From IMG/VR virus record IMGVR_UViG_3300007276_000039, positions 21,682-85,681 of that record: a DNA stretch of 64,000 bases, one strand, 5' to 3'. The notes under the pieces are model-generated. The model saw only the letters and a program-made list of their open reading frames with translations. It was not told where the DNA came from and did no database searches. Position numbers and translations under genes: made by a program. This DNA is from a virus. Positions 3,401 to 62,166 of this stretch are shown here, in pieces (the stretch's first letter is position 1; every line of letters begins with the position of its first letter).

Positions 3401-3733
3401 TCAGCAGTTCCATCGCTTCAAGGATGCTCCCTTTGGTGTGAGTTTACCACCTTTACTGGTCGGGCCTTTGACACCCGACATGCGAGCGCAAAACGATTTA
3501 CGACGCTTTGCCTTCTTTGAGCCGGGTTTGAGTTTGCTTGGTTTGGTTGTCACGGGAGGTTTGAGGTTTGCACCACTCTTACGCTTGGCGGCGGCACGAC
3601 CTTTAGCGTTCAGTCCACCTTTCTTACTGTGCTTATTTGGGTTATAACCATGAAATGGCTTACTTTTTTTGGCCTTCATTACAGCAAAGGCTAATTCAGC
3701 AGGCGAACAACAATCACAAAAATCGTAATCCAT
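3401..3733 (-). CDS. basic, Cys-containing phage small protein (DUF6321-like)
   Basis: A 110-residue protein, extremely rich in Lys, Arg and Gly. It has a CDCC cluster near the N-terminus, then GGLNAKGRAAAKR, NLKPPVT, KRRKSFCARMSG and a terminal SLKRWNC. This pattern recurs in many marine phages and is, from memory, the family catalogued as DUF6321; its function is unknown. The basic character suggests nucleic-acid contact inside the virion or host cell. The ATG at 3733 shares its first base with the stop of the giant gene (TGATG), better than a GTG one codon earlier. Why it sits inside the tail block is unclear. Confidence 0.65.
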   Translation of the reverse strand: MDYDFCDCCSPAELAFAVMKAKKSKPFHGYNPNKHSKKGGLNAKGRAAAKRKSGANLKPPVTTKPSKLKPGSKKAKRRKSFCARMSGVKGPTSKGGKLTPKGASLKRWNC

Positions 3734-27835: not shown

Positions 27836-28200
27836 AGCCCCTCCTTCTCAATGATTTTCTTAAAGTCAATAGGGATGATAAAACCGTTGTCATGACGCAT
27901 GTTGTACCGCTCAAGGTCGGGGTTTTGGCGTAGCATGGCCTTGTCCGTAGCGTCTTGAATGAGTTTGTGTTCTATCTCACTGGCTGGCTCTCCGGTCTTG
28001 TTGTTGATAGCCACACCGTCTTGCATGGCGAAGCCCTTAGCACCAGCCTCAATGCGCTCCATTTGCTCACGAAAAGCGGCAGGTTGAGTTGTGAATTGCT
28101 CACGAAACTGCGCCTGCATTTGCTTGTCTTTCTTGAATATCTCTTCAATCATACGCTGATGAATTGTTTCACCCTGCTTGTTGAAGTCACGCTGATTCAC
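27832..28200 (-). CDS. unknown small head-tail junction protein
   Basis: A 122-residue, Gln/Met/Glu-rich, largely helical protein (MNQRDFNKQGETIHQRMIEE...QFREQFTTQPAAFREQMER) ending in a basic FKKIIEKEGL. It starts with GTG overlapping the previous stop (GTGA) and its own stop overlaps the next gene. In other phages this place between the connector and tail terminator is held by HK97 gp10-like proteins, but no sequence signature supports that here. Confidence 0.5.
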   Translation of the reverse strand: MNQRDFNKQGETIHQRMIEEIFKKDKQMQAQFREQFTTQPAAFREQMERIEAGAKGFAMQDGVAINNKTGEPASEIEHKLIQDATDKAMLRQNPDLERYNMRHDNGFIIPIDFKKIIEKEGL

Positions 28201-37900: not shown

Positions 37901-40736
37901 ACTCTTGATTTAATTCTTCAAGCATTGTTGTGAGTTCGGATTCTTGTTGCGAAGCGGGTAACATACCGCCGAATTGAAGCAAACGAGAAACGGCATCCTT
38001 TTCGTCAGCCGCCATTGTGGTTTTTGTTTTCTGTGTCTTTTTCTTCGCTTGCAGTTCCTCAGTCATGGTTTCCGTCATGCTTTGAAGAGAAGAAAGCAAC
38101 TTCTGTTCATCAAACTCACCAAGACCTCGGCCCAACAAAGCAGTGTTTAATTCGGGATGCTTATCTGTAACGACACCGGGTGCCATCGGGAGAGTGTTTC
38201 TACCGTGCATAAGGTACTCAAGAATCTCCTTTGGGTCTTGTGTACCCAGTATTTTTGACGCTTGAGTAATGGCCGTCATAGCGTGATTCATATCGGGATT
38301 GGTCAACACTTGATTCTTCAACGCATTGAACGAAAAGCCACTACCACCGCCCCATCGCATAAAATCAATGAAGTGTTCTTTGCTCTCCCCACCACTGAAT
38401 GCCTCATCTCCACGAAGGAAGTCTTGAACTTTCATCAGTGATTTTTGTGCTGGTTGATGAGGGTGATTCATACGCCCGCCAAGCGTTTCAAGGAAGTGAG
38501 CCAGTTGTGCGTTCTTGTGCATATTGCTGTCCGAAGGAGATGCGCCGTAGGATGTGAAGGCACCCACATGATAGGTGGGAATAATTGTGTGTGGATATGT
38601 CAACGGTTTGAGATGGGTGCCAAACCTGTCCTTACGCTCTTTGTCCGTCATGTGGCGAATCGTGTATTCGTAATCGGGGTTGAGTGTCGTTTTGTGTTCT
38701 GTGTAGTTGTTCTTGCCGGTTGAACCGTCCCGGTACGCTCGTTTTTTGGAATGCCCTACGGGAGAAAGCAAGTTTTGTAGCAACTCTTTTTGGTTGAAGT
38801 ATGAAAAGCCCTTACCAGTAGAAACAAATTGCTGTGTGCTTGTGTTTACCTTTTTCATTTTTTCGCCAAACTCACCAATCAACTTTGTTTTTAATGGCAT
38901 GAAGTGATGAGCGAGCGTTGTGTTATCGGGATTGGCATTGATGTAATTTGCACCAGCATCGCTTAGTTCTGTGAATGGCGAAAGACCGTCCTCATCAGCA
39001 TGTGTGGCGTGAAGGATGTCATGGTAAGTTGCAAGCGTTATACCTGCTCCGCCCGTTTTTGCAAAGGCTGAGTCCCAAAAGCGACCGGGGCCGTAAGTGA
39101 AACCGTCACTGTGGTTTCGCCAGTAATTCGGTTTTTCCTCTGTTGGATGAGGGCCGTGTGGGGAAGTAAAAAAGGCCCGATGATTGCGAGCATCCTTGAT
39201 ACCAGCATGAAGTGAAGAGTTCGCCTTAGCCATGGATTCAATGTCGTCAATCAAGTCAGCGTTGACAATTGGTTCTTCCAATTTACCGTGAATTGGATGG
39301 TCGGTCATCAACTCCCGTGTCTTAGGGTCGTAGCCAGCCAAATAAAGCAAATCAGCCTTGCTCATTCGCACATCGTCAAGACTTCGCTTTCTTCCCTTTA
39401 CTTTGAAGTGGCTTGCCATTGCATCTTTCATTTCGTCTTGGTCAAGTTCTCTCATTGGGTTCTTGTCCACATAAAGGCGTGGTAGAAACTTGTGATGCCC
39501 CGATATACCGTAGTTGTCTCGGATGCGTTCAAGAATAATTTCTGAGAGTGAATGACCATCAAATTCATCCATAGGCTCGTGAGCAAATCTACCCATAGCC
39601 TGTTGCAAAAACATGTTGCTTTCACCAGCAATGTAGTCGTTGTCATTGTTTTCTTGATGGTAGTGTGCATTTCGCCCCATATGTGTCATTGGACGCATAG
39701 CCCAATTCATTTCGGGAGTCATACGCATGAGGGCGTTGTATTTGAGGCGAGCAGAAGGAAACTTTTGTCCGTTAGGTAGCGAAATCAAATCATGGTCGTC
39801 AAGACCCTTTTCACCGATATGCTCCATGATGGCTGTGCGTTCTTCGGGGTCAAACCATTCAAGGCCAAGCATGTAGCCAAGGTGCCCAAGCCGTGTTGGG
39901 TGTTCTTCATACTTGTCGCTGAGCATCATGTTGCTATCGTCATCAGCCTCCCACATGGCCGCTCGGTCAGCAAAGTGTTCTTTGCGAAGTTGCTCTTTCA
40001 TCTCAGCGTTGTCCATACCTTCAGCCAGTAATTCCTCTTGACGATTCTTGTTCCGCTTTAACCAACGGAAATAATCTCGCTCGTAGAGGTCATGCTGGTG
40101 ATGAAGAAGTGTGCCGTTTGGACGGGTATCACCAAGAATGTTTACCTTCTTTCCTCCTTTTTGCTGAAACCCACCGACAAGAGGATGGTCTTTACCGAGA
40201 GTATCAAAGAATTGCTTTTCCATTTCCTTCTCGGCTTCACCATGCCCACCCAGTGCCCAACTTCGTAGCATCTCTACATAGGCAGGCATCCCCGACACTG
40301 CGTTGGTACGAAGAAGCGGGTGGTTGACTTCGTGAAACGGGAAGTGGTGCCGCTGGTATGGATGTGTGCCGTCCTTTGGTTGGTAGTACGGCCACATTGC
40401 ATGGCCGTGCTTTTTGTTTACAGGTGATTGAAGCCCGTCTTTCCATACATGGTTGGTCGGCTCGCCATGTGAGTGTTGAAGAGCGAACAAGTAGCCCATA
40501 CCTTCGGGATATTTGTAATCGGTTTCACCGACTTTTACTGCATCTTTTTCTGCTTGTTCTTTATTCTTGTAAATCATCTCAGCCGTGGCTTTGAGAGATT
40601 TGAACAACGGTTCGCTTGGAGTCGTGTCAAGTGCTTCGTAGGCAAGAATGTATTCAGCCGCCGAATAAACAAGGTCAAGACCATCATCCAGTGATTTAAG
40701 CAGTTGGTTGCTACACACAAAGAAATGGTCGTTCAC
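34950..40736 (-). CDS. 1928-residue head-module protein with degenerate DNA-ligase-like C-terminal domains
   Basis: The first ~1400 residues are unrecognised, mostly helical and polar with Gln/Glu coiled stretches around 860-1010. From ~1430 to ~1670 the order of ATP-dependent DNA ligase elements is visible: a WSPAVRPMHRIFDL lead-in, motif I-like KWYDGKR (1458-1464), LDAIL (D1505) followed by IIDIINYD (motif III place), DNILLR (1576-1581, motif IV place), Y-x-x-G-x-R then KWIVYR (motif V place), and an OB-fold-like GDIVRASITGISKK then PVYNVQVKEL. The nucleophilic Lys position (K-x-D-G) is Trp1459, EGxxxK reads DNxxxR and the K-x-K of motif V reads V-x-R, so ligation activity is unlikely. The start is GTG. 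It lies between portal and prohead protease, suggesting an internal virion protein. Confidence 0.75.
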   Translation of the reverse strand: MNDHFFVCSNQLLKSLDDGLDLVYSAAEYILAYEALDTTPSEPLFKSLKATAEMIYKNKEQAEKDAVKVGETDYKYPEGMGYLFALQHSHGEPTNHVWKDGLQSPVNKKHGHAMWPYYQPKDGTHPYQRHHFPFHEVNHPLLRTNAVSGMPAYVEMLRSWALGGHGEAEKEMEKQFFDTLGKDHPLVGGFQQKGGKKVNILGDTRPNGTLLHHQHDLYERDYFRWLKRNKNRQEELLAEGMDNAEMKEQLRKEHFADRAAMWEADDDSNMMLSDKYEEHPTRLGHLGYMLGLEWFDPEERTAIMEHIGEKGLDDHDLISLPNGQKFPSARLKYNALMRMTPEMNWAMRPMTHMGRNAHYHQENNDNDYIAGESNMFLQQAMGRFAHEPMDEFDGHSLSEIILERIRDNYGISGHHKFLPRLYVDKNPMRELDQDEMKDAMASHFKVKGRKRSLDDVRMSKADLLYLAGYDPKTRELMTDHPIHGKLEEPIVNADLIDDIESMAKANSSLHAGIKDARNHRAFFTSPHGPHPTEEKPNYWRNHSDGFTYGPGRFWDSAFAKTGGAGITLATYHDILHATHADEDGLSPFTELSDAGANYINANPDNTTLAHHFMPLKTKLIGEFGEKMKKVNTSTQQFVSTGKGFSYFNQKELLQNLLSPVGHSKKRAYRDGSTGKNNYTEHKTTLNPDYEYTIRHMTDKERKDRFGTHLKPLTYPHTIIPTYHVGAFTSYGASPSDSNMHKNAQLAHFLETLGGRMNHPHQPAQKSLMKVQDFLRGDEAFSGGESKEHFIDFMRWGGGSGFSFNALKNQVLTNPDMNHAMTAITQASKILGTQDPKEILEYLMHGRNTLPMAPGVVTDKHPELNTALLGRGLGEFDEQKLLSSLQSMTETMTEELQAKKKTQKTKTTMAADEKDAVSRLLQFGGMLPASQQESELTTMLEELNQELTEKQTTGAPIEELQPLMAEINDTTQQLEKVQQSTQKKSKNTMWKLDATRMEQLFGGHRQTIAEVARDVLLPKYLEHDPDAFNPDEPEKFIANTHQLMRDAQRYIVSVPHSVHGVSSTNYGLQASVRDTDPAAQNPFHATIANHLSTDGIMVEGDENADKLLDKLGIQRTPVAKVKAQELIDMVGERGAPLQVSTIKNILLSGKIPNIDGLDLNHFTDEEMMNKPEEELDDHEAFYRHARENGYHQAINHFAQQTDIKAWGGHLSHGIPRAMGMKLNPQQFKDSMKAAGIGAVKGDIHGAKGFGSQSKSRKTNDTKNHLDTIIHFDPRVLEEEEGVFTPDLEIPETAGMSQYPLGIPSPAHAGLTDNFDSGAWHHGYEATPTLGAEFGDDGTIHIGSNVGTGLYHSVPEDLTAMIHGKEVAQQVYANAPPPQYPDNPHQSMNMETAETASEIPTTVAASEMTELITSLLDPDVLLSKSDDAKWSPAVRPMHRIFDLADLEHLRGFSGSWVVSKWYDGKRIIIVRSDDEITAYDENGRKKGLRKATKEALEKMNDKNYTLDAILGEEELNIIDIINYDDTNVGEMQLFERLKILRSQFDSQEPVIVPGPHDTRMTDDEGLADAVKNLKDDHDNILLRDNKSTYMRGERRHPKWIVYRDSRDFNFIILDRRGKGPYTYQLGAGPILEIEGLGNRAVEHDGEHYMDVGTAHNQRMVFKVGDIVRASITGISKKNRKNRPVYNVQVKELEGEGEGEGAASTESLDLMTKAFAPILIPHDIEISDSQIQIVLKGVDTVVYNMEEIGDVWCVHSPKSTMGDLTKTDYPVVLAESLMPFWSSVAPLMVKGLLSKQTESDVMPKKPSDKRTEEQSVGILEEDDENRLLKPNQTKKALEVIVRALDKISKERMTWTGPKGLGIDVGTPQESPRGPTQLRHESTLPDFDGEKKITDEKKEKKTERLNHIQVETDEGERLSIDYDNDQPLVSRT

Positions 40737-46286: not shown

Positions 46287-47777
46287 TCATGGAATCATCC
46301 ACCCATCAGCAGGATTGTGTTCTTTTGAGCGGTGTGGTTTACCACGAATCCACTCATCAAAGCCGGGTAACACATCGTCAAGCAGGACAACCGAGCCTTT
46401 GAACTCCTTGGTAGCCCAGTTTGCCAGTGCAAGTGACATAGCCAAGTCATCGTGAGTACCCACGCTTTCCAATTTACCATTTTTCTGCATACCGAAACGG
46501 TTGAGTTCAGTTTCCAATTTGTGAGTAAACTCACGGCTTCGTTTGTCACCGTATGGAGTTTGAATGCGGCCTTGCTCAAAAGCCATCAAAAGGGACATGA
46601 ACAGGCTTTCCTTGCGTGTGCGTGTTGTCATGAAAGTCTTGATTGGAATGTCTTGGCGCATTTCAAGGAGTTCGGCTTGGAACATACGCTGGAAGTTGTT
46701 GCCTTCCAACTCAATGAGGTCGGGTTGGAAACGGTTGTTAAGCATCATGATTTGATTTTTCTGCGCCAGTCCCGACATACCACGCTCGTGAACGATGCCA
46801 ACGATTTGTTTGACATCCTCACCCGGAAGCATACGCATGACGGTCATAGCGGTGAAGTCAGCGTTTTTATCCGATGCAATGGCTGTGTCCCACCCAATGA
46901 AATGTTGACCGAAAACTCCCATTGGTTCTCCTTCAGCATCGTACTCGGTATCAGCACGGTCAAGCAACACGAGGTCTTTGTTGCGTGCCTTTTCCAAGAT
47001 GTCGTTAGGAAACATACTGGCAACATCGTGGATAGGCTCACACAGGTACTCACGAGAAAACTGAATGGCTGGCATGGTGAGTCGCCGCTCGTTAAGTGAG
47101 TCTAAATCCCATCGCTCCGGCCACAGGGCTTCGCCTTCTTTGTTGATAGCGGGGTATGTTTCCACTTGGAATGTTTCAGTTTGTTCCAACTGAGAGTACA
47201 AGTCGTTGTACGAAAACGGCGTACCCACCATCATAAGGCGACCCGTGTGGTGGAGAACAGGGAGCAGGACACCGTAGAACCAGTCTGCGGCACGCTGTAG
47301 TTCGGTACCCGTCGTACCCCACAGAATATCGTCGCACAACACAACATCCGGGTGGAAACCACGAGTACCACCGCCGACCGACTTGGCCATGATACGGCTA
47401 CCATTGCTGAACTCAAAGTAGGTCTTGCGCCATGGTCGGCCTTCGGGGATGAGGTAGCGAATGGAGGGCGTGTTCTCAATGTTTTGACGGATGAAACGCA
47501 TGTGTTCAAGCGTCTGTTCCAACGAGTGCGAGAAAATCATGATGTGCTTACCCGGCTGGAAAGCGGCAATCCACAGGGCGTAGGACATGAAGAACACGGA
47601 CTTGCCGTGGTCACGAGATGCTTTCACGCAGTAGTATCGGTTGTCAGCCAGTCCTTTGTCCCACGACTTGTGATGGCCCGAATAATCAAAGCCCAAAATC
47701 TCCTTGAAGAAGTATTCAAACGACTTTGCAGACATCTTTCTGTCCATGTCGTGAATAAACCCCTCCATGTCGCTCAT
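46287..47777 (-). CDS. terminase large subunit
   Basis: A 496-residue packaging motor. The ATPase domain has a Walker A-like loop KASRDHGKS (52-60; the deviant R/H-bearing form common in phage terminases), Walker B VVLCDD (145-150) and coupling element GTPFSYNDLY. The RNase H-type nuclease has GWDTA with Asp297, LIELEGN with Glu358 and THDDLAMS with Asp443/Asp444, so all three metal-binding acids are present. It cuts concatemeric DNA and pumps it through the portal. The full domain set and typical length indicate an intact enzyme. GGTGAT precedes the ATG. Confidence 0.92.
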   Translation of the reverse strand: MSDMEGFIHDMDRKMSAKSFEYFFKEILGFDYSGHHKSWDKGLADNRYYCVKASRDHGKSVFFMSYALWIAAFQPGKHIMIFSHSLEQTLEHMRFIRQNIENTPSIRYLIPEGRPWRKTYFEFSNGSRIMAKSVGGGTRGFHPDVVLCDDILWGTTGTELQRAADWFYGVLLPVLHHTGRLMMVGTPFSYNDLYSQLEQTETFQVETYPAINKEGEALWPERWDLDSLNERRLTMPAIQFSREYLCEPIHDVASMFPNDILEKARNKDLVLLDRADTEYDAEGEPMGVFGQHFIGWDTAIASDKNADFTAMTVMRMLPGEDVKQIVGIVHERGMSGLAQKNQIMMLNNRFQPDLIELEGNNFQRMFQAELLEMRQDIPIKTFMTTRTRKESLFMSLLMAFEQGRIQTPYGDKRSREFTHKLETELNRFGMQKNGKLESVGTHDDLAMSLALANWATKEFKGSVVLLDDVLPGFDEWIRGKPHRSKEHNPADGWMIP

Positions 47778-50678: not shown

Positions 50679-52459
50679 CACATGTGCCCCCTTCGGCTGT
50701 TGATGATACCAACAGGGTCAAGCCCGAAGGTCTTAGCATCTGTCTCAAGGTTCTCAGTTGGGCCTTGTGGGTCTTCGTCATCAGTCGGTTTGACACCAGC
50801 AGGATGACCGGGTAAATCTGCGGCATCTGTCGCTGTCAAGTTTTTCTTTATTTTCGCTTCACGCTCTTTGGCTTGAATAAGCCGTCGCATGAGATTAAGC
50901 AACTCAATACGATGAAGACTGTTGCGAGCCTTAAGTATTTCACTTCGGTATCGCTCTTCACTCATCATAATGCTGGAAGAAGGAGAAGGCATAGCAGGCA
51001 CGCTGGATTGTGCCTGTGGCATCATAGGAGGAGAAGGAGGCATAGGAGCACGCATACGAGGCATACGAGGCATACGAGGACGACGCATACGACGAAGTGC
51101 CGGACGAGCCATTTGTCCACTTTGTCCAGCCATCAATCCACCGAGTCGTCCAGCACCCGTAGGGCCAGCGTAGTTGGAGCGGGCACCATACCTTGCGTGC
51201 GGTGAGAACGGTGTGCGAACATTGCCCAAGATTTTACGGGCCTCGGATTGTCCTTTGTACTGCGTGTACTTCTGCGGGTCTTTGGATAGCGGTTGCTTGG
51301 TTTGAATACCACGGTGGCTCATCTCAACCGATAGGTGTGGCTTCATCAGCCCCGTCTTTTTGCCGCTTTTGATACCACGCATCTGTGCTTTGAAGCGGCG
51401 CATCGTTGCACCAGCCCCACCGCTCATACCACCCGGTGGTGTCTTGAATTGTCCAGTAGATGGACGAAACTGTTGGCGTGCCTCACGCCGTCGTCGCCCT
51501 GCAATTGAGCGTGGAGTTTCACGCTTAAGCAGGCTACTCCAAGCATCCTCCATCGGCTCGCTGGCATTCTTTGTTCTAAAATCATCATCGGGTTCACCCA
51601 TTTGGGGGCCAATGAGTTGTCCGAGATAATTCAAATTAGTGTACAAACCTGCTATATTTGCGGCTACTTGAGCATGTGAAGGTGCATCACTGAGCATCCT
51701 CGTCATATCCGCATTTTGATGTTGGTCAAGGAATTGTTGTGGTACAGTATCCCCCTTACCTTGCATCATTGCATCCAAAACCAACAAAGAATTACGATGC
51801 TCCATTACCATGTCCATTGATGCCTGTGGATGAAGGTTTTCTTCGTGCATACCGCTTAGCGTTTCTGCATCTCCATGATGGTGGTTTTTGTAACCCATTG
51901 CATCCATCATTCCGCTGTTGACCAAGTTCTGTATCATTGGCGTTTCCATACCCATAATTTGGTCATACCACTCGTGATTGGGTGATTTGAATACCTCGTT
52001 TAAATTGAATGAAAACGGCTCTTCATCCTGCTTTAACAAACTACTCCAAGCATCTTCCATCGGCTCGCTCATGGCGATTGGGAGGCCGGGACTCATGGCT
52101 GAGCCTGTTCCACTCTTTGCCCCAGTAGCAAGGTCAAGAAGTGTACCCCGACTTCCAGCAGGGCCACCAGCCAAACCAATTTCACGCTCAGCATCACGCT
52201 TGTTGCCATCATCCAACGGGGATGGAGACTCTTCTCCGCTTAATCCTTGCGTGGCACGGATTTTGATGTGCTTAATTTTTGCACGCTTGGCTTTCTTCTC
52301 CTCAGCCTTGCGCTTCTTTTCCTCACGCTTTTGCTCGTTGTACTCCGGGTCGGACGGGCTGTACTTGGTTTCATCCTCGTTGGCCGAGGAGTACATTTTG
52401 TCCGACTCGCTACGAGGCGAGTACATGCGAGTATCGGAGCCACGACCCATCATTGGCAT
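50678..52459 (-). CDS. 593-residue protein with two copies of the recurrent SEPMEDAWSSLLK motif
   Basis: The N-terminus is highly charged (Lys/Glu-rich KKRKAEEKKAKRAKIKHIKI, coiled-coil or disordered). Two almost identical segments occur near residues 130 and 297 (SEPMEDAWSSLLK), encoded by DNA that is also nearly identical (52040-52072 and 51540-51572), so a recent duplication of the segment is likely. A basic Met/Arg/Pro-rich repeat (RMPRMPRMRAPMPP) lies around 460-485. The C-terminal part has helices (SEILKARNSLHRIELLNLMR) and acidic tail. Function is unknown; a virion internal protein is possible. Confidence 0.65.
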   Translation of the reverse strand: MPMMGRGSDTRMYSPRSESDKMYSSANEDETKYSPSDPEYNEQKREEKKRKAEEKKAKRAKIKHIKIRATQGLSGEESPSPLDDGNKRDAEREIGLAGGPAGSRGTLLDLATGAKSGTGSAMSPGLPIAMSEPMEDAWSSLLKQDEEPFSFNLNEVFKSPNHEWYDQIMGMETPMIQNLVNSGMMDAMGYKNHHHGDAETLSGMHEENLHPQASMDMVMEHRNSLLVLDAMMQGKGDTVPQQFLDQHQNADMTRMLSDAPSHAQVAANIAGLYTNLNYLGQLIGPQMGEPDDDFRTKNASEPMEDAWSSLLKRETPRSIAGRRRREARQQFRPSTGQFKTPPGGMSGGAGATMRRFKAQMRGIKSGKKTGLMKPHLSVEMSHRGIQTKQPLSKDPQKYTQYKGQSEARKILGNVRTPFSPHARYGARSNYAGPTGAGRLGGLMAGQSGQMARPALRRMRRPRMPRMPRMRAPMPPSPPMMPQAQSSVPAMPSPSSSIMMSEERYRSEILKARNSLHRIELLNLMRRLIQAKEREAKIKKNLTATDAADLPGHPAGVKPTDDEDPQGPTENLETDAKTFGLDPVGIINSRRGHM

Positions 52460-53136
52460 TATTCAACCCCCATGTTTTCTTGCAACTGCTTCTTAATTCG
52501 CATCCATGTGTCGGGGCTTTCCTTACCCAACTCCACTTGCAAAATGTTGAATGTTTGATTGACCTGCTGGCCGTCGCTCTTGGCACCCCATTGGTCTTGA
52601 AATCGCAGGAGGTCTTTGACAGTCTCACGCACTTCTTTATGTAGAGCCACAGCATCTCGCACGAATCCGTCTTCATGAACTGTACCTTCATCCAACAACT
52701 CACTGAGTTTATGATTTAATTTCTCAGCATTTGAACGAAGAAGTGTAATTTCACTTCCAGCCGTGAGAGCGACTTCAATGGCGGCAGACTTCTGCACGAG
52801 TGGTTGGAAGTGATGTCGCATATGGTGGTACACATTGTCCTCGGAAATACCCATCTCTTGAGCAATGTGTTCACTTACGCTTCCATCCTCAAAGTAAGCA
52901 CGCTCATACTCGCTTCGCATGGGAGTGACACACAGCGCACAGTCGGTGTTTGCGGCCATGTGGTAGTCGCCCATGTGGTTGCGGAAATGACGGTCTGCGG
53001 TATTGCTTCTCCACCCCATATCTTTGTCCAGTTGACGGGCAGAAATGAAGCCTTGAAGCATTTGCTCTTCAAGTGAATCACGGTCTTCATGCGTGCAAAA
53101 CGCACATGAGCGCTTCGTGACTCGCTCCCCCGCCAT
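52459..53136 (-). CDS. possible terminase small subunit / DNA-binding protein with zinc knuckles
   Basis: A 225-residue protein, first gene of the packaging block. It holds two similar modules: residues ~10-55 with CAFC ... H-x-x-N-H-M (SARQLDKDMGWRSNTADRHF) and ~65-115 with CALC ... H (VSEHIAQEMGISEDNVYHHM). Each pairs a Cys knuckle with a helix-turn-helix and distal His residues. The rest is coiled-coil-like (RSNAEKLNHKLSELLDEG) with QVNQTFNILQVEL at the end. Small terminases have an N-terminal helix-turn-helix plus oligomerising helices and sit near the large subunit, which fits, but no direct family match can be claimed. It may instead regulate the divergent gene. Confidence 0.55.
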   Translation of the reverse strand: MAGERVTKRSCAFCTHEDRDSLEEQMLQGFISARQLDKDMGWRSNTADRHFRNHMGDYHMAANTDCALCVTPMRSEYERAYFEDGSVSEHIAQEMGISEDNVYHHMRHHFQPLVQKSAAIEVALTAGSEITLLRSNAEKLNHKLSELLDEGTVHEDGFVRDAVALHKEVRETVKDLLRFQDQWGAKSDGQQVNQTFNILQVELGKESPDTWMRIKKQLQENMGVE

Positions 53137-53186: not shown

Positions 53187-53447
53187 ATGCGGAGGATGCC
53201 GAGGGTTGCAAAAGTGCCTCTCAACTACGATACAATTCGTAGTCTCACCAACGCTGTGAAGGACATAGCAACGGGACAACATGCACCCGAAATACTTCGT
53301 GACGAGCGTGCTCGTATTTGTGGTACATGTCCCTTTGGTGGTGGAAAAAAACGATGTACACAGTGTGGTTGTTTTATCAAAACCAAAACAGCACTCCTTT
53401 CGTCGGAATGTCCGATTGGTAAATGGCCGTCATCTCGTAATGCGTGA
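53187..53447 (+). CDS. small zinc-binding protein, divergent from the packaging operon
   Basis: An 86-residue protein. The N-terminus is amphipathic and basic (RVAKVPLNYDTIRSLTNAVK). The C-terminal half has CGTCP, then CTQCGCFIKTKTALLSSECP followed by IGKW, a six-Cys pattern that recurs in short phage proteins (C-x-x-C ... C-x-x-C-G-C ... K ... CP-x-GKW), probably zinc-binding. The first ATG is used because it suits the TATA position; an in-frame ATG three codons on is preceded by GGAGG at zero spacing. Its 3' end overlaps the convergent minus-strand TM gene by 18 bases. Confidence 0.65.
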   Translation: MRRMPRVAKVPLNYDTIRSLTNAVKDIATGQHAPEILRDERARICGTCPFGGGKKRCTQCGCFIKTKTALLSSECPIGKWPSSRNA

Positions 53448-53675
53448 ATAAACAGCCGTCAAAAAGACAAGCGTTCCAGCCAGCCCCACCAATAGGTAGG
53501 AGGCATTGGTAGAACCAATTTCATTTCCTTTTAAGAAAAGCAACATAGTCAAAGTGATAATGGCAGAAAGAATCTGTACCATTATCATGTCCACAATAAC
53601 ACTGCGATTTGGGTTCATCACATTGAGTGATGTAGCCGCAAAAGATTGCCCAAGCATCATACTTCTATCCATCAT
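53430..53675 (-). CDS. small membrane protein, two TM segments
   Basis: An 81-residue protein, with two hydrophobic stretches (residues ~28-47, VDMIMVQILSAIITLTMLLF, and ~60-77, YLLVGLAGTLVFLTAVYS) separated by a short charged loop. It could be a holin-like or membrane-anchoring protein. It is the last gene of the operon that begins at 56949 with two other membrane proteins and the GTPase. It overlaps its upstream gene as ATGATG and the convergent zinc gene by 18 bases. Confidence 0.6.
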   Translation of the reverse strand: MMDRSMMLGQSFAATSLNVMNPNRSVIVDMIMVQILSAIITLTMLLFLKGNEIGSTNASYLLVGLAGTLVFLTAVYSRITR

Positions 53676-54301
53676 CTCATCCCCATTAGTCCTCGTGCGA
53701 CACTACCAACACCGCCACCGACTTTTTCCATCATACCTTCATCAGCCAATGCCGCTGAAAGCGCACCACTCATCATGTTCTGTTGTGAGTATGCGGCAAT
53801 TTGCGACTGTCCCTGCTCGGCCAGTGTGATGTTTTGTTGTGCACCACTTTGCAAGGTATTGAACTCAGCCTTGATGTTTTCAGCACTCATAGTTTGAAGG
53901 TGCTGAGGCAACTTCGTAATGTCCATTTTGAGATTGCCATCGCCGTCTTCAGTGAACACCGCATTCTTCATGACTTCAAGCACGCTGAAACTCACGAGGT
54001 TGTTGAGCATCTGTACCAGCGTAGCCATTTGTTGACTTGCAATGAATCTGTCCATAGGAACAATACCACGGAGCAACATAATTTGCATTTCAATCTCCGA
54101 TGGTGGTGCAACTGGTTGTTGCCCCCATTGTGCTGATGCTCCCCCAGTCATTCCTTGCATGAATGGACTTGCGGCGGCTTGACCGAAGGGACTTTGTTGT
54201 GCGGGCCATGGCTGTTGGTTGCCTGATACACCTAAATTCAAAGCACCATTATTCATTGGTGATTGATTGTTATTTCCGCCAAGCCCTAACATGTCACTCA
54301 T
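53672..54301 (-). CDS. Gln/Met/Gly-rich protein of unknown function
   Basis: About 209 residues from the ATG at 54301, preceded by GGGGGGA, overlapping the upstream stop by eight bases. The N-terminus is Asn/Gly/Gln-rich and probably disordered. The middle (residues ~70-125) has helices IMLLRGIVPMDRFIASQQMA and MLNNLVSFSVLEVM; the C-terminus is Ala/Met-rich (MMSGALSAALADEGMME). No family is recognised. The operon context suggests a link with the GTPase/membrane module, or a minor virion protein. Confidence 0.55.
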   Translation of the reverse strand: MSDMLGLGGNNNQSPMNNGALNLGVSGNQQPWPAQQSPFGQAAASPFMQGMTGGASAQWGQQPVAPPSEIEMQIMLLRGIVPMDRFIASQQMATLVQMLNNLVSFSVLEVMKNAVFTEDGDGNLKMDITKLPQHLQTMSAENIKAEFNTLQSGAQQNITLAEQGQSQIAAYSQQNMMSGALSAALADEGMMEKVGGGVGSVARGLMGMR

Positions 54302-55226
54302 TCCCCCCAAGGGGTTCTTGTTCAAGAGCGTTTTGATTGCCCATCATATTTTGAAAAGCCTGTGTAGGTTGATTCATCATGGCGATTTCATGTTCAAAAA
54401 TACGCAAATCAAACACCACCATCGTAACATCATTTTGCTTATTCACAGGGTTTTGGTAGTGTATGATGTTGATACCTTTGGTTTTCTTTGCATCGTGCAT
54501 CAATTGTTGGAAGAAAGGCTCATATTTTTCAAGCATGGGTGGGGTAGGGTCTTTTCTTGTAATGCTGGCCACTGGAACAGTTACCACACTTACCCCACGC
54601 TTAACATGGTCACGAAGTCGGCGTGGATTGTTTTCACGCACTTTTTCTTCTTCCGCTTCCCACTTGCATAGCAAATGAAACAGGTGGAGATGTTCGGGAC
54701 AGTATGTGCCACGCATTTTGCGTCCACTGGTGACCTTGTCCTTAGCAATGAAAGCCTCAGCCTCACCAGTGACAGGATTTTGCCAGTACATCTCCCAAAG
54801 ACTACGCCCATTGTCCTCATCGGAAATCTTAGCGTACAAATTGTCATGTTGAATAAGAGTAGCACAATCGCAACCGTCCACGACGCACACATGTGTTTGC
54901 TTGTCGTATCGGTGTTTGCGACCAAATAACCAACGAACAGGATTGAGAATGTGTCGCTTTGACGGCATAAGTAGTTTGTATGCTTGCTTGATGTCTTTAC
55001 GACGAGCCTTGTGTGGGTCGGGATGGCGTGAAGGATAGAAGTTCACTTTCGGGACTTGGAGATTTTGCTCCCCTGCTACAGCCTGCATTTGTTGTTGCGC
55101 TGTGGCTTGCTCCATGAGTGCCGCATGAGATAATCCAGCATTTCCTTGTTGTGCAAGAGCATACAAGTGAGCGTTATTTGCATCACCGAGTGTTTGTTGT
55201 TGTTGTGGTCGTGTAAAGTTCATCAT
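54294..55226 (-). CDS. unknown protein with Cys/His metal site
   Basis: A 310-residue protein. The N-terminus is Gln-rich (HLYALAQQGNAG ... EQATAQQQMQAV). Around 105-190 there is HVCVVDGCDCATLIQHDN and later YCPEHLHLFHLLCKW, a Cys/His set that could bind zinc between two lobes. A basic stretch (RRKDIKQAYKLL and PSKRHILNPVRWLFGRKHRY) precedes it. The C-terminal region contains EHEIAMMNQPTQAFQNMM. GGTGAT lies before ATGATG; the start overlaps the AbrB-like gene's stop. I do not recognise it. Confidence 0.55.
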   Translation of the reverse strand: MMNFTRPQQQQTLGDANNAHLYALAQQGNAGLSHAALMEQATAQQQMQAVAGEQNLQVPKVNFYPSRHPDPHKARRKDIKQAYKLLMPSKRHILNPVRWLFGRKHRYDKQTHVCVVDGCDCATLIQHDNLYAKISDEDNGRSLWEMYWQNPVTGEAEAFIAKDKVTSGRKMRGTYCPEHLHLFHLLCKWEAEEEKVRENNPRRLRDHVKRGVSVVTVPVASITRKDPTPPMLEKYEPFFQQLMHDAKKTKGINIIHYQNPVNKQNDVTMVVFDLRIFEHEIAMMNQPTQAFQNMMGNQNALEQEPLGGNE

Positions 55227-55393
55227 TGTTCATCACCTACAAATTGTGCCGCATATCCTTCATCTGTGCGTATCAGTTCCCATTTTATTTTTGCACCCTT
55301 CTCAAGTCCCATCAATTCTGCAATCCACATAGGGATAACCGTGCGAACACTGTTGCTCGTTTGTCCCACTGATGCTACTGTTGTTTTTGTCAT
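55223..55393 (-). CDS. AbrB/SpoVT-type swapped-hairpin DNA-binding protein
   Basis: 56 residues from the ATG at 55393 (GGTGGG three bases upstream; the longer frame overlaps the GTPase gene). The sequence TKTTVASVGQTSNSVRTVIP followed by WIAELMGLEKGAKIKWELI matches the AbrB swapped-hairpin fold: N-terminal strand, the R-T/V-x-[IV]-P signature, a helix with G-[LV]-x-x-G and a final strand. Archaeal genomes and viruses carry many such short regulators. It dimerises and binds operator DNA. It lies directly behind the GTPase, so it may regulate this operon. Confidence 0.75.
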   Translation of the reverse strand: MTKTTVASVGQTSNSVRTVIPMWIAELMGLEKGAKIKWELIRTDEGYAAQFVGDEQ

Positions 55394-55401
55394 TTTCCCA
55401 C

Positions 55402-56118
55402 CTACGATGTTAAGAGATTTACCATGGTTGCATCCACATTCCACCCGATTCTTGTCGCCATAAACGAGCGACGAGTGGGTACACCTGCTTTTTGCAAGCG
55501 AATAAGGTCATCACGGAATGCGTCAAAGATTTTATGTTCACCGATGCGGTCTTGTTGCCAAAGCATAACCGCAGTTTCGTCAAAAAAACGGTCGGCTTTG
55601 TTGGCTACCAACATAATGAGTTTAGGAACATACTTCTTGCCTTTCCACCGGCTTTTGAAATTACGATAGCGATATTGGCGATTGATAACCGCATCCACGA
55701 AATACTTGAAGCCAGCAATTTGCTGTAGGGCTTCATCCCCTCCTTTGATGGCTCGGTCATCAAACATGTAAATGACACACTCCACTTGGCGTGCCACCAT
55801 GTCATCAATCCATAAATTCCAAAATCGTTCTTGACCTCCAACATCCGATGAAAAGACGACCCTCTTTTCACCCTTCCACGATACACGCTTGCGTGTTGGT
55901 TTAGGGAGCATATGCCGTCCGAGCATTTTGAAGTGTGTTGTGCGTTCTTCTTCGGGTATCTCTTCCATTTCACCCGGAGTTGTCATGTATCGGTCAAGAG
56001 TCGTTTTACCAGTTAATCCTGCGCCGTAAATACCGACCTTGCGTGGCCTCCACGCATTGAAGACCGCTTTACCCCACACCATCGCTCCAACGACCGCTGT
56101 ACTCGCTGGCTCAACCAT
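55402..56118 (-). CDS. Arf/Ras-like small GTPase
   Basis: A 238-residue protein with the complete small-GTPase motif set: P-loop G32-AGLTGK-T39, switch-I threonines T60/T61, G3 as DVGGQERF (92-99; the Arf/G-alpha type D-x-G-G-Q with the catalytic Gln), and G4 NKAD (173-176). The strand before G4 (PKLIMLVA) and the helix pattern fit. Eukaryotic and archaeal Arf/Ras proteins act as membrane-linked switches. Here a hydrophobic N-terminus (VEPASTAVVGAMVWGKAVF) could touch membrane. The two preceding genes encode TM proteins. G5 is not the classic SAK; a T-R-I-G segment at ~217 may take its place. The start overlaps the upstream stop by eight bases. Confidence 0.85.
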   Translation of the reverse strand: MVEPASTAVVGAMVWGKAVFNAWRPRKVGIYGAGLTGKTTLDRYMTTPGEMEEIPEEERTTHFKMLGRHMLPKPTRKRVSWKGEKRVVFSSDVGGQERFWNLWIDDMVARQVECVIYMFDDRAIKGGDEALQQIAGFKYFVDAVINRQYRYRNFKSRWKGKKYVPKLIMLVANKADRFFDETAVMLWQQDRIGEHKIFDAFRDDLIRLQKAGVPTRRSFMATRIGWNVDATMVNLLTS

Positions 56119-56386
56119 TGAAAAGCCCCCAAAGCCAATCTGCGAAGTCTTGTGCCTTGCCCCAAGCCCATTCTACTGTGTTTTCCCATGCTGATTCACC
56201 TGTTTGAAGTTCCCAATAACTGGTTAAGAGTATCGCCACGCTCACAAAAAGCACTGTTCGTATCCACCCTACACCTCTTTCGTAATAATTGTCCAGTGTG
56301 TTTTGGGTGTGCATCGCACGAAGTGTAGCCTCAGTAGAATCGTCTGTAGGCGTTTTGAAAATGCGTCCCAAAACATCACCACTCAT
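56111..56386 (-). CDS. single-TM protein upstream of the GTPase
   Basis: A 91-residue protein with one membrane segment (residues ~41-58, GWIRTVLFVSVAILLTSYW) followed by a Trp-rich amphipathic tail (SAWENTVEWAWGKAQDFADW). The first 35 residues are polar. Trp-rich amphipathic ends often lie on membranes. It overlaps the GTPase start by eight bases, so the two are probably translated together. This could be the membrane anchor or effector of the GTPase. Confidence 0.6.
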   Translation of the reverse strand: MSGDVLGRIFKTPTDDSTEATLRAMHTQNTLDNYYERGVGWIRTVLFVSVAILLTSYWELQTGESAWENTVEWAWGKAQDFADWLWGLFNG

Positions 56387-56949
56387 TCATTTTTGAATCG
56401 CTTATCGGGTGTGCCGTCTTGCTTGAGTGGAACTTCCTCATCTTGCTTGATACCAAGGTTGACTGGTGTTTTGATTTCAGCCGAATGCTTAGGTGGATTG
56501 CTAATGAGTTTGTTTTCTTGTTGTTGCACAAGTGAAGGTGAACCACCGGGTACACCCCACGAGGGTGGCATTTTGCCGGGGTTTTGCTCCATCCAACGCA
56601 ACTCCTGTTCAAGTTGTGCTTCTTGCATACGAAGTTCCATTTCCGACCTGCGGTTATCAAATTGATACTGCATTGAACGGTATCGGCCCTGCCGCTCCCT
56701 TTCCATGTTTTGAACTCGTACACGCTCTTGCATGTTTTGTTCAAAGAACATTTTGAAGAAGTAGTACGCTATTCCTTGCACGAAGAAAGCGGCCATGGCG
56801 TATGTAAAACCGTTTACCATCGGGTCGTTTGTGTTTAACCACATGTCTGCGTCAAACAGACCAATCGCTAATCCCACGAGTGCGGATTGAGCGAGAATTA
56901 GGCCCATAAGTCGGATTTCAGCGTCGGATGTGTTGCTACCTTGTTGCAT
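56383..56949 (-). CDS. membrane protein with coiled-coil tail, first gene of the GTPase operon
   Basis: About 188 residues from the ATG at 56949, with GGTGAGG four bases upstream; a GTG three codons earlier is less likely. Two hydrophobic segments (residues ~15-32, IRLMGLILAQSALVGLAIGL, and ~45-65, NGFTYAMAAFFVQGIAYYFF) flank a short DADMWLNTNDP loop. A long charged coiled coil follows (EQNMQERVRVQNMERERQGR, EMELRMQEAQLEQELRWMEQ), then a Pro-rich tail. The coiled coil would protrude into the cell and could bind the GTPase or other virion proteins. It is preceded by the promoter and palindrome region. Confidence 0.65.
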   Translation of the reverse strand: MQQGSNTSDAEIRLMGLILAQSALVGLAIGLFDADMWLNTNDPMVNGFTYAMAAFFVQGIAYYFFKMFFEQNMQERVRVQNMERERQGRYRSMQYQFDNRRSEMELRMQEAQLEQELRWMEQNPGKMPPSWGVPGGSPSLVQQQENKLISNPPKHSAEIKTPVNLGIKQDEEVPLKQDGTPDKRFKNE

Positions 56950-57170: not shown

Positions 57171-58202
57171 TCACAATTCCCGAAGGGTTCCCTTGTCTTT
57201 GAAGTGCCGTGCCCTGTTTTCATGCTCGCCTTCAAGGGTCAATTTGCCGCCCTCGGTGTGGCTGATGTCCTTATGGTCGTGGCTACCGTAGATGCCACGG
57301 CGACGGCGTTCACGGTTCAACTCCTCCCGATACTTCACCCGCTCCGGCGTGGACTCGTACTTCTTGTCGTACTCCAACTTGTGCCGCTTGGCTTCGGGGC
57401 TTACACGCTCTTTGAGCAGTTGAAAGGCGATGTCCATGGGTTCGCTGGCGTACAACAGGTCTTCGGTTGGAATGTTGAGGCGTTGTTGGTTTTGACTCCA
57501 TTGGCGGGTATCATCACGAATTGAATCAAGAGCATGGGGGTCGGTAATGTCCGGTATCATCAAGTGCTCATCTGTCAAAACAGGCGGGAGGCCAATTCTC
57601 ATCATTTGACGAGCAATTGATTGTTGTTTTCCGCTCAGTTGGTCAGGAGTGAAACCACTGGATGGAAAAAGAGAGCGAGCCGCTACTCTCAAATCGGGAT
57701 AATGTACAGGTTTGTTGAACACTGGCATAATGTTGCTTTCGTCCACATCGCCGTAAATGATGCCTTCTGTTTGTAGATTATTTGAAAATCGTTGTGGTGT
57801 AGTGTCTCTACCCTCAAAGGCGTACATTTGGAGATTGCGAGGTCTATTGCCCCTGCCTATTTTGTAAGAGCGAGGTAAATCGGCTTCTGTTCCACTATTA
57901 AACATGTTAGGATTCATTGAAAACGCTTGAAACGGGTACACATGGCGACCCATGAGTGGTTCGGTATGTCCCAGTTCAGTGGTTGATAAGGGCAAATTTG
58001 TGTTCATTCCCATACTTGCTAAATCGTGTTTAAAATTGACATTCGTAGGAGTGGTCAACGCTCTCGCCTCAGCAGGTGTGTTGTAGTCTGTAGGTTGCAC
58101 ACGCATGGAATGAAAACCCGGATGAGGATTGTACATCACATCGTCAAGGTAGTCCAAGTATTCTTGACGCAAAGGGGATTTGATGACCAACACGGGCTTC
58201 AT
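57171..58202 (-). CDS. unknown protein with the recurrent SEPMDIAFQLLK motif
   Basis: A 343-residue protein. It begins MKPVLVIKSPLRQEYLDYLD. The centre is Pro/Asn/Asp-rich with few predicted structures (HVYPFQAFSMNPNMFNSGTE). Near residues 250-262 is ASEPMDIAFQLLKERVSPEA, a clear copy of the short motif. The C-terminus is highly charged and basic (ERVKYREELNRERRRRGIYG then HDHKDIS) and may bind DNA. Its start overlaps the next gene by ATGA. No family is recognised; a virion-internal protein is possible. Confidence 0.6.
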   Translation of the reverse strand: MKPVLVIKSPLRQEYLDYLDDVMYNPHPGFHSMRVQPTDYNTPAEARALTTPTNVNFKHDLASMGMNTNLPLSTTELGHTEPLMGRHVYPFQAFSMNPNMFNSGTEADLPRSYKIGRGNRPRNLQMYAFEGRDTTPQRFSNNLQTEGIIYGDVDESNIMPVFNKPVHYPDLRVAARSLFPSSGFTPDQLSGKQQSIARQMMRIGLPPVLTDEHLMIPDITDPHALDSIRDDTRQWSQNQQRLNIPTEDLLYASEPMDIAFQLLKERVSPEAKRHKLEYDKKYESTPERVKYREELNRERRRRGIYGSHDHKDISHTEGGKLTLEGEHENRARHFKDKGTLREL

Positions 58203-59594: not shown

Positions 59595-61355
59595 ATGAGC
59601 AGGCGTGTTGCTGTCCGTAATAGCGGCGACACGGTAGAGAAGTTTGCTTTTCTTGCCCCTCTTGCGAGTGCCGCTATGGGCACTGTGGGAAGAGCCGCCG
59701 CAACAAAGGTAGGCCAAACTGCACTTGGACAAGGTGCAAAATCAATGGCTGGTAAACTTGCTGAAAGCAAAGTAGGACAAATGGCTGGCAAAGTCGCCAG
59801 TAAAACGAAGGATGTTTTGGGTGAGGATGCTGGAAAGAAAATTGGTGAAGCAGGTGCGGCAATGGCACAAATGCAACAACAAAAACAACAAGCCATGCAA
59901 CAACAAAATCAACAAATGGCCGACAAAGCCAAGGCTGGCTCGCAAATCGCTACGGGTGAAGCCATGGACATGTCGTGGCAGATGCTTAAAGCGTGGTCGT
60001 TTCTTCCCGGCTTTGATGAATTTGACAAACACTCCATTATTCAACACGCTAAGAAAATGAAATTACAACATGTGAGTATTCATGACTTAGGGCATCATGA
60101 TAAGCGTTTTAACGAGCGGTACAAACCCGACCAAGAAATGCCAAAGGGTGCTGAAAAACTCACTCCACGAGACTTGTCTCTCGCTTACATGGATTTGATG
60201 CTTCGTCGCAACCCCGAACTGATTGAGCGGGGCAATCAAAAATCAAAGGTAGGAGGAAAAGATGAATTTGGTAATCCTCACCCCGATAATTTTCCCGGTA
60301 TTTCATTCCCTCTTCTTCAAACTGATGAGCCAATAAGGAGTCAAGTAAAAACAGACAAAGGTAGAATGATTGAACAGTATCATCCTGTCTTTGCCGCCGG
60401 TCATGCTCACCATGAGCCTTCCGAACATCCAAAGTTTGCCCTTGTCACTGCGAATGATGCGGCAACACAAGCAGGAAACAGGAATACAATTGGAGTAACA
60501 CATACTGTGAATCGCTATTCACACGAACATTTCCCGATTGTTGATGATGCCGCTTCCGATGCGTTTTACAATGTGATGTATGAGCAAGAGCAAAAGCAAA
60601 AGCGAAAGCAAGGGAAAGACGAATACGATTTTGAGGAAAAGGAAGAATCCCCACAGGCTCGCAATAAGAGAATTATCACTGATGAAATAAATCGTCGTCA
60701 TTTTGGTGATTTCTTGCAACCAATTGATTTTGAAAGAATGAAAGCAGGAGGTCTTTCTCCTTCAATCACTCAAAGAATTGCAGAACAACGAGTGCATGGT
60801 CAAAACCCAATGGCCGTTGAAGCCGATAATCCGTTGCTAATTTACCCGGATGGTAGTCCTCTTGCGAGGCAATATAGAAGTTTTCAAGCAAAAAATCCTC
60901 CTGCTGATGATGGAGATGATGGAGGCGATGGAGGCGGTGGAGGCGGTGGCGGTGGACTACCTAACTCAACTTTTCTCTCGCACCCGTCACCTCCCATACA
61001 CCTCGGAGGTGGAATGTACATGTGGCGAGGAAACTACTACGGTGGCCTTGGTCAACCACCACTCCCACCCGAAGCGGAGGCAATGATTCAAAATGGAGAA
61101 CCAATGGACATGGCATGGCGTATGCTCAAAGGTGAGTTGCAGTTGCCGCACCAAATCACTGAGGCACTGCGAGGCGACCTCACCACCCTTGACCGGGCAC
61201 ACAAAATGACCGACACCAATGAAGGGACGCTCATTGAGGGTATTCATCCCGACATGGAGAATGTGGTCAAGTTGCTGGCTGAGAAGCACATGGGAGACAT
61301 ATCCCCAACGATGCAACGGCCTGTCATGCCGCTATTTCACTCACCGTTTCACTGA
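59595..61355 (+). CDS. lone plus-strand gene: Gly-rich protein with two copies of the recurrent motif
   Basis: About 586 residues. The ATG at 59595 suits the TATA box; the longer frame to 59520 overlaps the divergent gene. Residues ~20-120 are Ala/Lys/Gln-rich amphipathic repeats (GAKSMAGKLAESKVGQMAGK then a run of Gln). GEAMDMSWQMLKAWSFLPGF lies near residue 122 and GEPMDMAWRMLKGELQLPHQ near 502, two copies of the motif shared by other proteins. Between them are a Lys/Glu stretch (EQEQKQKRKQGKDEYDFE) and a Gly/Asp linker (~438-455). HSIIQHAKKMKLQHVSIHDL, then GHH, is His-rich. Its 3' end overlaps the convergent HMG-CoA lyase-like gene by 32 bases. Function is unknown. Confidence 0.65.
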   Translation: MSRRVAVRNSGDTVEKFAFLAPLASAAMGTVGRAAATKVGQTALGQGAKSMAGKLAESKVGQMAGKVASKTKDVLGEDAGKKIGEAGAAMAQMQQQKQQAMQQQNQQMADKAKAGSQIATGEAMDMSWQMLKAWSFLPGFDEFDKHSIIQHAKKMKLQHVSIHDLGHHDKRFNERYKPDQEMPKGAEKLTPRDLSLAYMDLMLRRNPELIERGNQKSKVGGKDEFGNPHPDNFPGISFPLLQTDEPIRSQVKTDKGRMIEQYHPVFAAGHAHHEPSEHPKFALVTANDAATQAGNRNTIGVTHTVNRYSHEHFPIVDDAASDAFYNVMYEQEQKQKRKQGKDEYDFEEKEESPQARNKRIITDEINRRHFGDFLQPIDFERMKAGGLSPSITQRIAEQRVHGQNPMAVEADNPLLIYPDGSPLARQYRSFQAKNPPADDGDDGGDGGGGGGGGGLPNSTFLSHPSPPIHLGGGMYMWRGNYYGGLGQPPLPPEAEAMIQNGEPMDMAWRMLKGELQLPHQITEALRGDLTTLDRAHKMTDTNEGTLIEGIHPDMENVVKLLAEKHMGDISPTMQRPVMPLFHSPFH

Positions 61356-62166
61356 GTTTTATTTTCTCAGCAATTCTTGAGGCCGCTTTGAGGGCTTCTT
61401 CGTCCACACCTGTGGTAAAACCCCATGCGTGTAGGTGAGTTACCAGTGTTTCAGTGGACAAGTTGGCTCCGCTGTTGTCGGCAAACGGGCAACCACCCAG
61501 TCCACCAATGCTTGAATCAATTTCGTAAATGCCGTTGAGTAGTGCGGCACGCACTAATTCAAGCGCACGCCCTTCGTTGCCGTTGTGATGCAGGTGCAAT
61601 GCGGCACGCACACCTTCGTTTTTGGCGAGTTCAGCGACTTCGGCTATTTCTTTGCGTGTACCAGCCCCAACCGTGTCGGAGAACACCACAGTGTCGCCAA
61701 ACATTTTCGCATCACGAATACACGAAATGAGAGTGGGCATACGAGGTGTGCCGCTGTGAGGTGAGCCAAACGCCATGCTGATGTACACTCGCACATTCTT
61801 TTTGGGCACTTTGTCCATGAAGGTCTTGTACATCAACACAATTTCACTGCGAGTCTTGCCCATGTTCTGCATGTTGAAAGTCTCGCAGGGAGAAAACACG
61901 ATGTTGAACTTCTGCACACCAGCCGATACAGCCCGGTCGTAGCCACGCTTGTTCATCACCAGTGCACTGCCACGGTCAAACACTTCCTCAGCATCAGCCA
62001 TTTGCGGCACAAGGCGGGGGTGAGCAAAACTCACTTCTTCTATAGAACGCAACCCTGCGTCGTATAGGCTTGCAATCAGTTGTTTTTTGGTCGCTGTTTC
62101 AACAGGCCGTTTGAGTGCTTGAAGTCCATCACGAGGGCCAACCTCGTAGATGGAGATGTTCATCAT
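61324..62166 (-). CDS. HMG-CoA lyase-like enzyme (DRE-TIM metallolyase)
   Basis: A 280-residue TIM-barrel enzyme. The catalytic set of 3-hydroxy-3-methylglutaryl-CoA lyase is complete: GPRDGLQ with R12/D13, E43 (30 residues on, as in the human enzyme), S-D-T-V-G with D164, HLHHN with H191/H193 as metal ligands, the GLGGCPFA active-site loop with C226, and N235 nine residues later. HMG-CoA lyase cleaves HMG-CoA to acetoacetate and acetyl-CoA; HMG-CoA is also the entry to the mevalonate pathway that makes archaeal membrane lipids. An aldolase or citramalate-type relative is less likely because the loop fits HMG-CoA lyase. GGAGTG precedes ATGATG. It is a possible auxiliary metabolic gene. Confidence 0.8.
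   Translation of the reverse strand: MMNISIYEVGPRDGLQALKRPVETATKKQLIASLYDAGLRSIEEVSFAHPRLVPQMADAEEVFDRGSALVMNKRGYDRAVSAGVQKFNIVFSPCETFNMQNMGKTRSEIVLMYKTFMDKVPKKNVRVYISMAFGSPHSGTPRMPTLISCIRDAKMFGDTVVFSDTVGAGTRKEIAEVAELAKNEGVRAALHLHHNGNEGRALELVRAALLNGIYEIDSSIGGLGGCPFADNSGANLSTETLVTHLHAWGFTTGVDEEALKAASRIAEKIKLSETVSEIAA

Follow-up and report, generated by a model that had tools for sequence, protein, structure and literature searches.

A virus-specific family of small GTPases in a conserved late-gene module of magroviruses

A small GTPase gene in the late operon of a magrovirus-type genome

The stretch of DNA analyzed in this study (64,000 nucleotides, referred to as the window) comprises bases 21682-85681 of the IMG/VR virus record IMGVR_UViG_3300007276_000039, which has a length of 85,681 bases. 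At position 55402-56118 on the minus strand it contains a gene for a small GTPase of 238 amino acids, P0001, which together with P0002 to P0007 forms a module in the late operon. To the left of the window, the record encodes a family-B DNA polymerase (PolB), a clamp-loader-type AAA protein, an ERCC4 nuclease and a TCP1-type chaperonin. Located on the opposite strand within the window are the genes for the terminase large subunit (TerL, 46287-47777, minus strand), the portal, the prohead protease, a major capsid protein of the SU10 type and a tape-measure-like protein. PolB, clamp loader, ERCC4 nuclease, chaperonin and head-tail virion genes running in the opposite direction are features of the Magrovirales, tailed viruses with Poseidoniales as predicted hosts, for which the same gene layout has been described (PMC10768690, PMC12999244). 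The record has magrovirus gene content, and Poseidoniales archaea are its predicted hosts.

A full set of small-GTPase motifs including DVGGQ had been recognized at this locus in a sequence-only reading, and it is present in P0001: G1 (GAGLTGKT), the RT of switch I, G3 (DVGGQ), G4 (NKAD) and a G5-like MAT. Motif conservation was counted in 108 distinct full-length GTPase sequences derived from 160 loci. YG....GKTT, ANKAD and the G5-like MAT were kept in all 108 of them, and R59-T60 of switch I was invariant across 30 aligned rows. The family carries the Ras-superfamily signature, i.e., G1 GxxxxGK[S/T], G3 DxxG, G4 NKxD and the switch-I threonine, with G3 in the form DxGG or DxAG. The glutamine of DVGGQ, to which that reading had drawn attention, proved to be variable, as the last G3 residue is Q in 66, E in 30, D in 10 and H in 2 of the 108 sequences.

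Searches with P0001 gave nothing above the cut-off in Pfam or NCBIfam and nothing listed in PHROGs; the top Pfam match was Roc with 17 bits compared to a cut-off of 27. A structural model calculated from the 30 aligned rows had a predicted local distance difference test score (pLDDT) of 68.7 and a predicted template modelling score of 0.69. It showed the order of elements typical of small GTPases plus an additional N-terminal helix (residues 5-23), and pLDDT values below 50 at residues 35-55, 57-61 and 93-97, which makes the P-loop and switch stretches low-confidence regions. Foldseek placed small GTPases on top (Rab27B, Sec4, Rac3; E about 1e-6). The 1000 chains ranked highest by Foldseek, a list outside which further GTPase families may lie, were re-aligned structurally with VIA. 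Here, Arf/Arl proteins led with ARL1 (Z 14.8, root mean square deviation 2.9, 161 aligned residues), ARF6 (14.8), Arf1 (14.6) and the Gerdarchaeal ArfR1 (14.3), whereas RagD reached 12.7 and the best Rab row 12.6. The model matches small GTPases and not another P-loop fold. Motifs and predicted fold together indicate that P0001 is a real small GTPase. The ratio of nonsynonymous to synonymous substitution rates (dN/dS) was 0.03 against each of three relatives; these ratios are rough because nearly all dS values were high (0.79 to 2.3). The GTPase is under strongly purifying selection.

Conservation and composition of the module in two virus groups

Among viral contigs, 120 GTPase relatives were confirmed with the window's protein and 213 by a profile scan. 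In all scans the best 80 loci were examined (of 120, 213, 210, 255, 193, 118 and 444 confirmed), and the scans often share contigs and near-copies, so the counts are not independent. In the first scan, for which the 80 loci were fetched by the GTPase, the neighbours were found in order: P0003 in 78, P0002 in 78, the GTPase, P0005 and P0006 in 80 each, P0007 in 79, the TerS-like gene in 80, and P0004 in 57. In both loci lacking P0003 and P0002, the contig starts at the GTPase. TerL served as an independent anchor for GTPase presence. When loci were fetched by TerL, 36 of 80 had at least 9.9 kb of upstream sequence (44 were dropped for short flanks), and the GTPase was present in 35 of these, the 36th contig carrying it just beyond the fetched stretch. 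P0003 was found in 33 and P0002 in 34 of the 36 loci, and the missing ones lay at the stretch end. The putative TerS-like gene (52459-53136, minus strand), assigned by its place and a helix-turn-helix-like match, is the next gene in the operon after the module; all 66 loci fetched by it with enough flank contained P0001 to P0007 (14 of 80 were dropped). Median identities to the window, taken across 37 loci, were 79.4% for TerL, 76.9% for the GTPase, 70.7% for the TerS-like protein, 70.3% for P0003, 69.1% for P0005, 64.4% for P0002, 48.3% for P0006 and 47.1% for P0007. The GTPase is nearly as conserved as TerL over these loci.

A second virus group was detected by a whole-genome search of the metagenome bin containing locus L083, which revealed two distant GTPase relatives (E 6.7e-33 and 1.2e-31; 28 and 30% identity). 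They led to 118 confirmed viral contigs, of which the best 80 were examined. Behind the major capsid protein gene, these contigs carry a block encoding a likely membrane protein, a small transmembrane (TM) protein, the GTPase, a Cys-His protein and a helical protein, whereas in the window's group the module is located before the TerS-like gene. Downstream of the block lies a gene sharing phrog_17057 with the window's gene at 28197-29798. All five block genes were present in 48 of 48 loci fetched by the major capsid gene with enough flank (32 of 80 were dropped). When the families of the two groups were compared with hhalign, the matches followed their place in the block: the GTPases matched with an E-value of 1.9e-33, P0005 with 1.1e-8 and P0006 with 1.2e-4 (probability 54.5%), whereas the remaining pairs gave 0.0026 or worse and P0007 had no matched counterpart in the second group. 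As the block is intact despite its different place, a joint function of its genes can be argued. The synteny of the gene set is conserved, in 66 of 66 loci of the window's group and with the order kept in the second group. The GTPase had been expected to be a rarity; it is near-universal in the viruses sampled, judged by loci fetched by other genes (35/36, 66/66 and 48/48).

PolB matches were found in 12 of 12 long records of the second group, as two separate frames in 10, as a single frame in one (G011) and as a single match with internal stops in one (G014); Cpn60 was present in 10 of the 12. Since a split PolB and a GroEL-type chaperonin have been described for the Aoguangviridae (PMC12999244), the second group is probably near this family. 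In some of its members (L430, L435, L445, L459, L461), about 0.3-0.9 kb of extra sequence separates the GTPase from the small TM gene or from the Cys-His gene, and therefore the block tolerates insertions. The record IMGVR_UViG_3300021958_000021 (184,733 bases; L430 and L458) contains two GTPase modules, four PolB pieces and two Cpn60 genes, which would be explained by the joining of two related genomes or by a chimeric assembly.

A cellular origin was considered for three GTPase matches on genome contigs and rejected; because each shows the viral gene order, these are contigs of magroviruses that ended up in metagenome bins. Magrovirus-type contigs occur in bins with the titles Maricaulis, Asgard group archaeon and Cytophagaceae (L083, L084, L085, L407, L408), and mis-binning is likelier there than a provirus.

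The genes adjoining the GTPase gene are all located on the minus strand. Upstream lie P0003 (56383-56958, with start GTG 56958 or ATG 56949) and P0002 (56111-56386), which overlap by 4 bases, and P0002 overlaps the GTPase gene by 8 bases. P0003 is a likely membrane protein with one stretch above the hydropathy cut-off (Kyte-Doolittle (KD) value 2.14 at residue 17), a second hydrophobic stretch below it and then a long charged helix. The small protein P0002 combines one TM-like stretch (KD 1.72 at residue 38) with a tail rich in Trp. Both observations agree with the sequence-only reading of two overlapping upstream genes for membrane proteins. A KKDGTPDKRYK-like motif was noticed at the C-terminal end of P0003 and recurs there in many relatives.

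Behind the GTPase gene, P0004 (55223-55393) encodes a small AbrB/MazE-like protein; its start is corrected from GTG 55444 to the likelier ATG 55393. The AbrB-like character assigned to it earlier held, as PF04014 (MazE/AbrB) matched 8 of 8 aligned members at E<=1 (best 1.2e-5), with the window's own copy below the cut-off (14.0 compared to 24.7 bits). P0004 overlaps P0005 (54294-55226) by 4 bases. P0005 is a 310-residue protein. An alignment of 61 rows drawn from the two virus groups shows C114, C176 and H179 to be invariant, and we infer that the protein binds zinc. Its model (pLDDT 77.8) gave no useful fold match with Foldseek (best E 1.5) or VIA (best Z 2.8), and no relative was found in deposited phages at E<=0.01. 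P0006 (53672-54301, where ATG 54301 is a likelier start than TTG 54325) has an N-terminus rich in Gly, Gln and Asn followed by a mostly charged, helical-looking C-terminal part. It overlaps by 4 bases with P0007 (53430-53675), a small protein at the end of the module whose two TM-like stretches, noted before, both exceed the hydropathy cut-off.

Some further features of the window are worth mentioning. The gene before the module (57171-58202, minus strand), present in 61 of 80 loci, matches phrog_6437 of unknown function with its last 70 residues (E 7.9e-17), which are far better conserved than the remainder. A small Cys-rich open reading frame (ORF) at 53187-53447 lies on the plus strand within the late operon, overlaps the end of P0007 and has a weak DUF6171 match (23.7 bits, cut-off 27). 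An HMGL-like gene (61324-62166) is located on the strand opposite to the PolB/clamp-loader part. The tail region includes one open frame that is 5,999 codons long (3733-21732, minus strand), and a 1,928-codon frame before the protease gene (34950-40736, minus strand) shows a weak match to ATP-dependent DNA ligase at 1471-1598 (21.2 bits, cut-off 26.2).

Relationship to cellular and viral GTPases

The cellular profiles used for comparison were built from presumed Asgard genomes, so named from the bin title. The Arf, Ras and Rag sets comprised 29, 18 and 13 rows, labelled according to the search that retrieved each row, and at least one "Arf" row falls among the Ras rows. The ArvA-type set consisted of 19 GTPases adjoining OapB in 19 of 20 fetched loci. 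In hhalign, the joint viral GTPase profile matched Arf best (E 3.8e-11), followed by Ras (9.5e-10), Rag (2.2e-9) and the ArvA type (2.4e-6). For the GTPase of the window's group alone, Arf and Ras were nearly tied (2.6e-10 versus 8.6e-10), and for that of the second group alone Arf was clearly ahead (2.3e-10; next 8.8e-8). At E<=0.001, a threshold at which 12 of 14 control genomes matched, the Pfam family PF00025 (Arf) was not detected in the window's record; at E<=1 it matched 5 of 30 GTPase members, the best E-value being 0.021, and none of these matches passed the Arf cut-off. A tree built from 84 rows united the 24 viral ones in one clade (100/100) with a stem of about 4 changes per column. 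As the Arf rows are split in the same tree, long branches meet and the bootstrap is unsettled, the viral GTPases may have originated inside the Arf-like proteins.

Judged from these comparisons, the GTPases are best regarded as a virus-specific family of the Ras superfamily to which Arf is the nearest of the four cellular families compared. The Arf/Ras assignment made at first sight stands in so far as P0001 is a small GTPase to which Arf is nearest among the families compared; membership of either family is not established. For Arf, membership was not accepted because PF00025 stayed below its cut-off and the G3 glutamine occurs in 66 of 108 sequences only. The viral family resembles Arf/Arl proteins of eukaryotes and Asgard ArfR in its best structural matches, its nearest profile, the N-terminal helix ahead of the G domain and the DxGG of G3. 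It differs from them in having no Pfam Arf match above cut-off, no conserved glutamine, a long separate tree stem and no counterpart of the myristoylated Gly2, residue 2 not being Gly in any of the 30 aligned rows.

The second system to be compared is ArvA/ArvB/ArvC (OapABC), a vesiculating GTPase system of Euryarchaeota. In Haloferax, vesicle output falls when ArvA, which has an N-terminal amphipathic helix, is deleted and rises when it is overexpressed; it also rises on loss of ArvC, a Zn-ribbon partner proposed to be a GTPase-activating protein (PMC10927574). The two systems share a small GTPase with an N-terminal membrane-type helix and operon neighbours that include a Zn-type protein, and the viral block has membrane proteins in addition. 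The GTPases are locally alike in G-Y/F-YG....GKTTL and IP.E.R. Membership in the ArvA (OapA) family was rejected, since G3 is DxPG there and DxGG or DxAG in the viruses, and OapB and OapC were not found next to P0001; neither family was listed for P0002-P0007 at E<=5. The profile match was also weaker than that to Arf.

MglA and Rup are comparable as single-domain prokaryotic GTPases, and Group 1 Rup proteins are described as lacking the G3 glutamine, which a partner is thought to supply, and as having coiled-coil and membrane neighbours (PMC4316618). Roadblock/MglB had no match among P0002-P0007; the sequence comparison covered the four cellular families named above. The haloviruses HF2 and HGTV-1 gave no profile match, an empty answer that carries no weight for these two viruses. 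No relative of the GTPase of either virus group was found in deposited phages at E<=0.01, and no cellular relative was met in a search that left Poseidoniales host genomes outside. Large eukaryotic viruses are known to encode small GTPases, and 38 BFVD matches at E<=0.001 bear the names of such viruses. Those GTPases differ in being annotated as Ras, Rab, Ran and the like, and to our knowledge none of them sits in a virion operon. The GTPase fold is likewise known. Within the reach of the literature searches, neither the viral family nor its place in tailed archaeal viruses nor the conserved module appears to have been described; no paper linking magroviruses with a GTPase was found, and the gene may be annotated in the main magrovirus genome papers.

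Possible role of the module at the archaeal membrane

We propose that the GTPase family is the core of a magrovirus late-gene module and acts as a membrane-anchored GTP switch, serving assembly at the archaeal membrane or exit through it, and assign this proposal a probability of roughly 0.48. Its hydrophobic N-terminal helix, together with the two membrane proteins, would keep the GTPase at the cytoplasmic membrane of the host; GTP binding would turn it on, and the Cys-His protein P0005 would regulate hydrolysis, by analogy with the role proposed for ArvC towards ArvA. The switch would decide the site or time at which particles assemble at the membrane or leave through it. The N-terminal stretch of the GTPase is hydrophobic in both virus groups, with a best KD window mean of 1.07 in the window's group and 1.60 in the second group. 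Hydrolysis regulated by P0005, or catalysis completed by a partner as proposed for Rup GTPases, would fit a G3 glutamine that is free to vary. Both the place of the module and its conservation speak for a function in assembly at the membrane or in exit through it.

Several points weigh against this proposal. We infer the function only, and the computed evidence leaves assembly, exit and lysis indistinguishable. The position in the head operon is equally compatible with a pure assembly role. In the window's group the N-terminal helix is mildly hydrophobic (mean best KD 1.07) and of modest amphipathicity (0.22), and in the model residues 1-6, like the P-loop and switch stretches, have pLDDT values below 50. 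Zinc binding by P0005 is based on three invariant residues without a fold match, and P0003 (hhalign E 0.8) and P0002 (0.062) have no sequence match to their second-group counterparts.

A bolder version, in which GTPase switch, membrane anchors and zinc-type regulator make up an Arf/ArvA-like membrane-deforming machine that lets a tailed, non-enveloped archaeal virus bud or leave without bursting the cell, is in our view unlikely. A similarly small chance is given to the GTPase and its neighbours being virion components, packaged in or near the head or neck and acting in assembly or genome entry, with the membrane segments used at the next infection. The second-group block, flanked by the major capsid protein gene and a likely gene for a head-tail connector, would suit such a role, but two or three genes of the module encode likely membrane proteins and none of the module proteins has a structural family match.

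The block directly before the TerS-like gene in the window's group recalls lambda, in which lysis genes are located at a comparable place before the terminase small subunit gene, and a Pfam scan of 27 window proteins, representing part of the window's ORFs, detected no lysis enzyme. The small membrane proteins might then permeabilize the cell, timed by the GTPase. However, lysis cassettes are expected to be less conserved than the GTPase and P0005, and the second-group block lies inside the head genes, which renders this explanation quite improbable. GTPase motifs and the Arf-nearest fold would also be expected of an effector that imitates or inhibits a host GTPase involved in division, motility or vesicle traffic; its fixed place among virion genes, the coupling to the same neighbours in both groups and the lack of a cellular relative within the search described above make this very unlikely. 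Hardly probable, too, is a nucleotide-binding scaffold with little GTP hydrolysis, as might be suggested by the 42 of 108 sequences in which E, D or H takes the place of the G3 glutamine, since G1 and G4 are invariant and Group 1 Rup GTPases, too, lack this residue.

In summary, the analysis suggests that tailed viruses with abundant ocean archaea as likely hosts control a late infection step at the host membrane in a mode undescribed for tailed viruses, for which, as far as we know, reliance on Ras-type switches is not generally known. Conservation of the GTPase close to that of the terminase in one marine archaeal virus group, together with its retention beside the same set of neighbours in another, suggests that an important late step at the archaeal membrane has so far gone undescribed. 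The five genes make assembly in, and exit from, cells without peptidoglycan a testable question.

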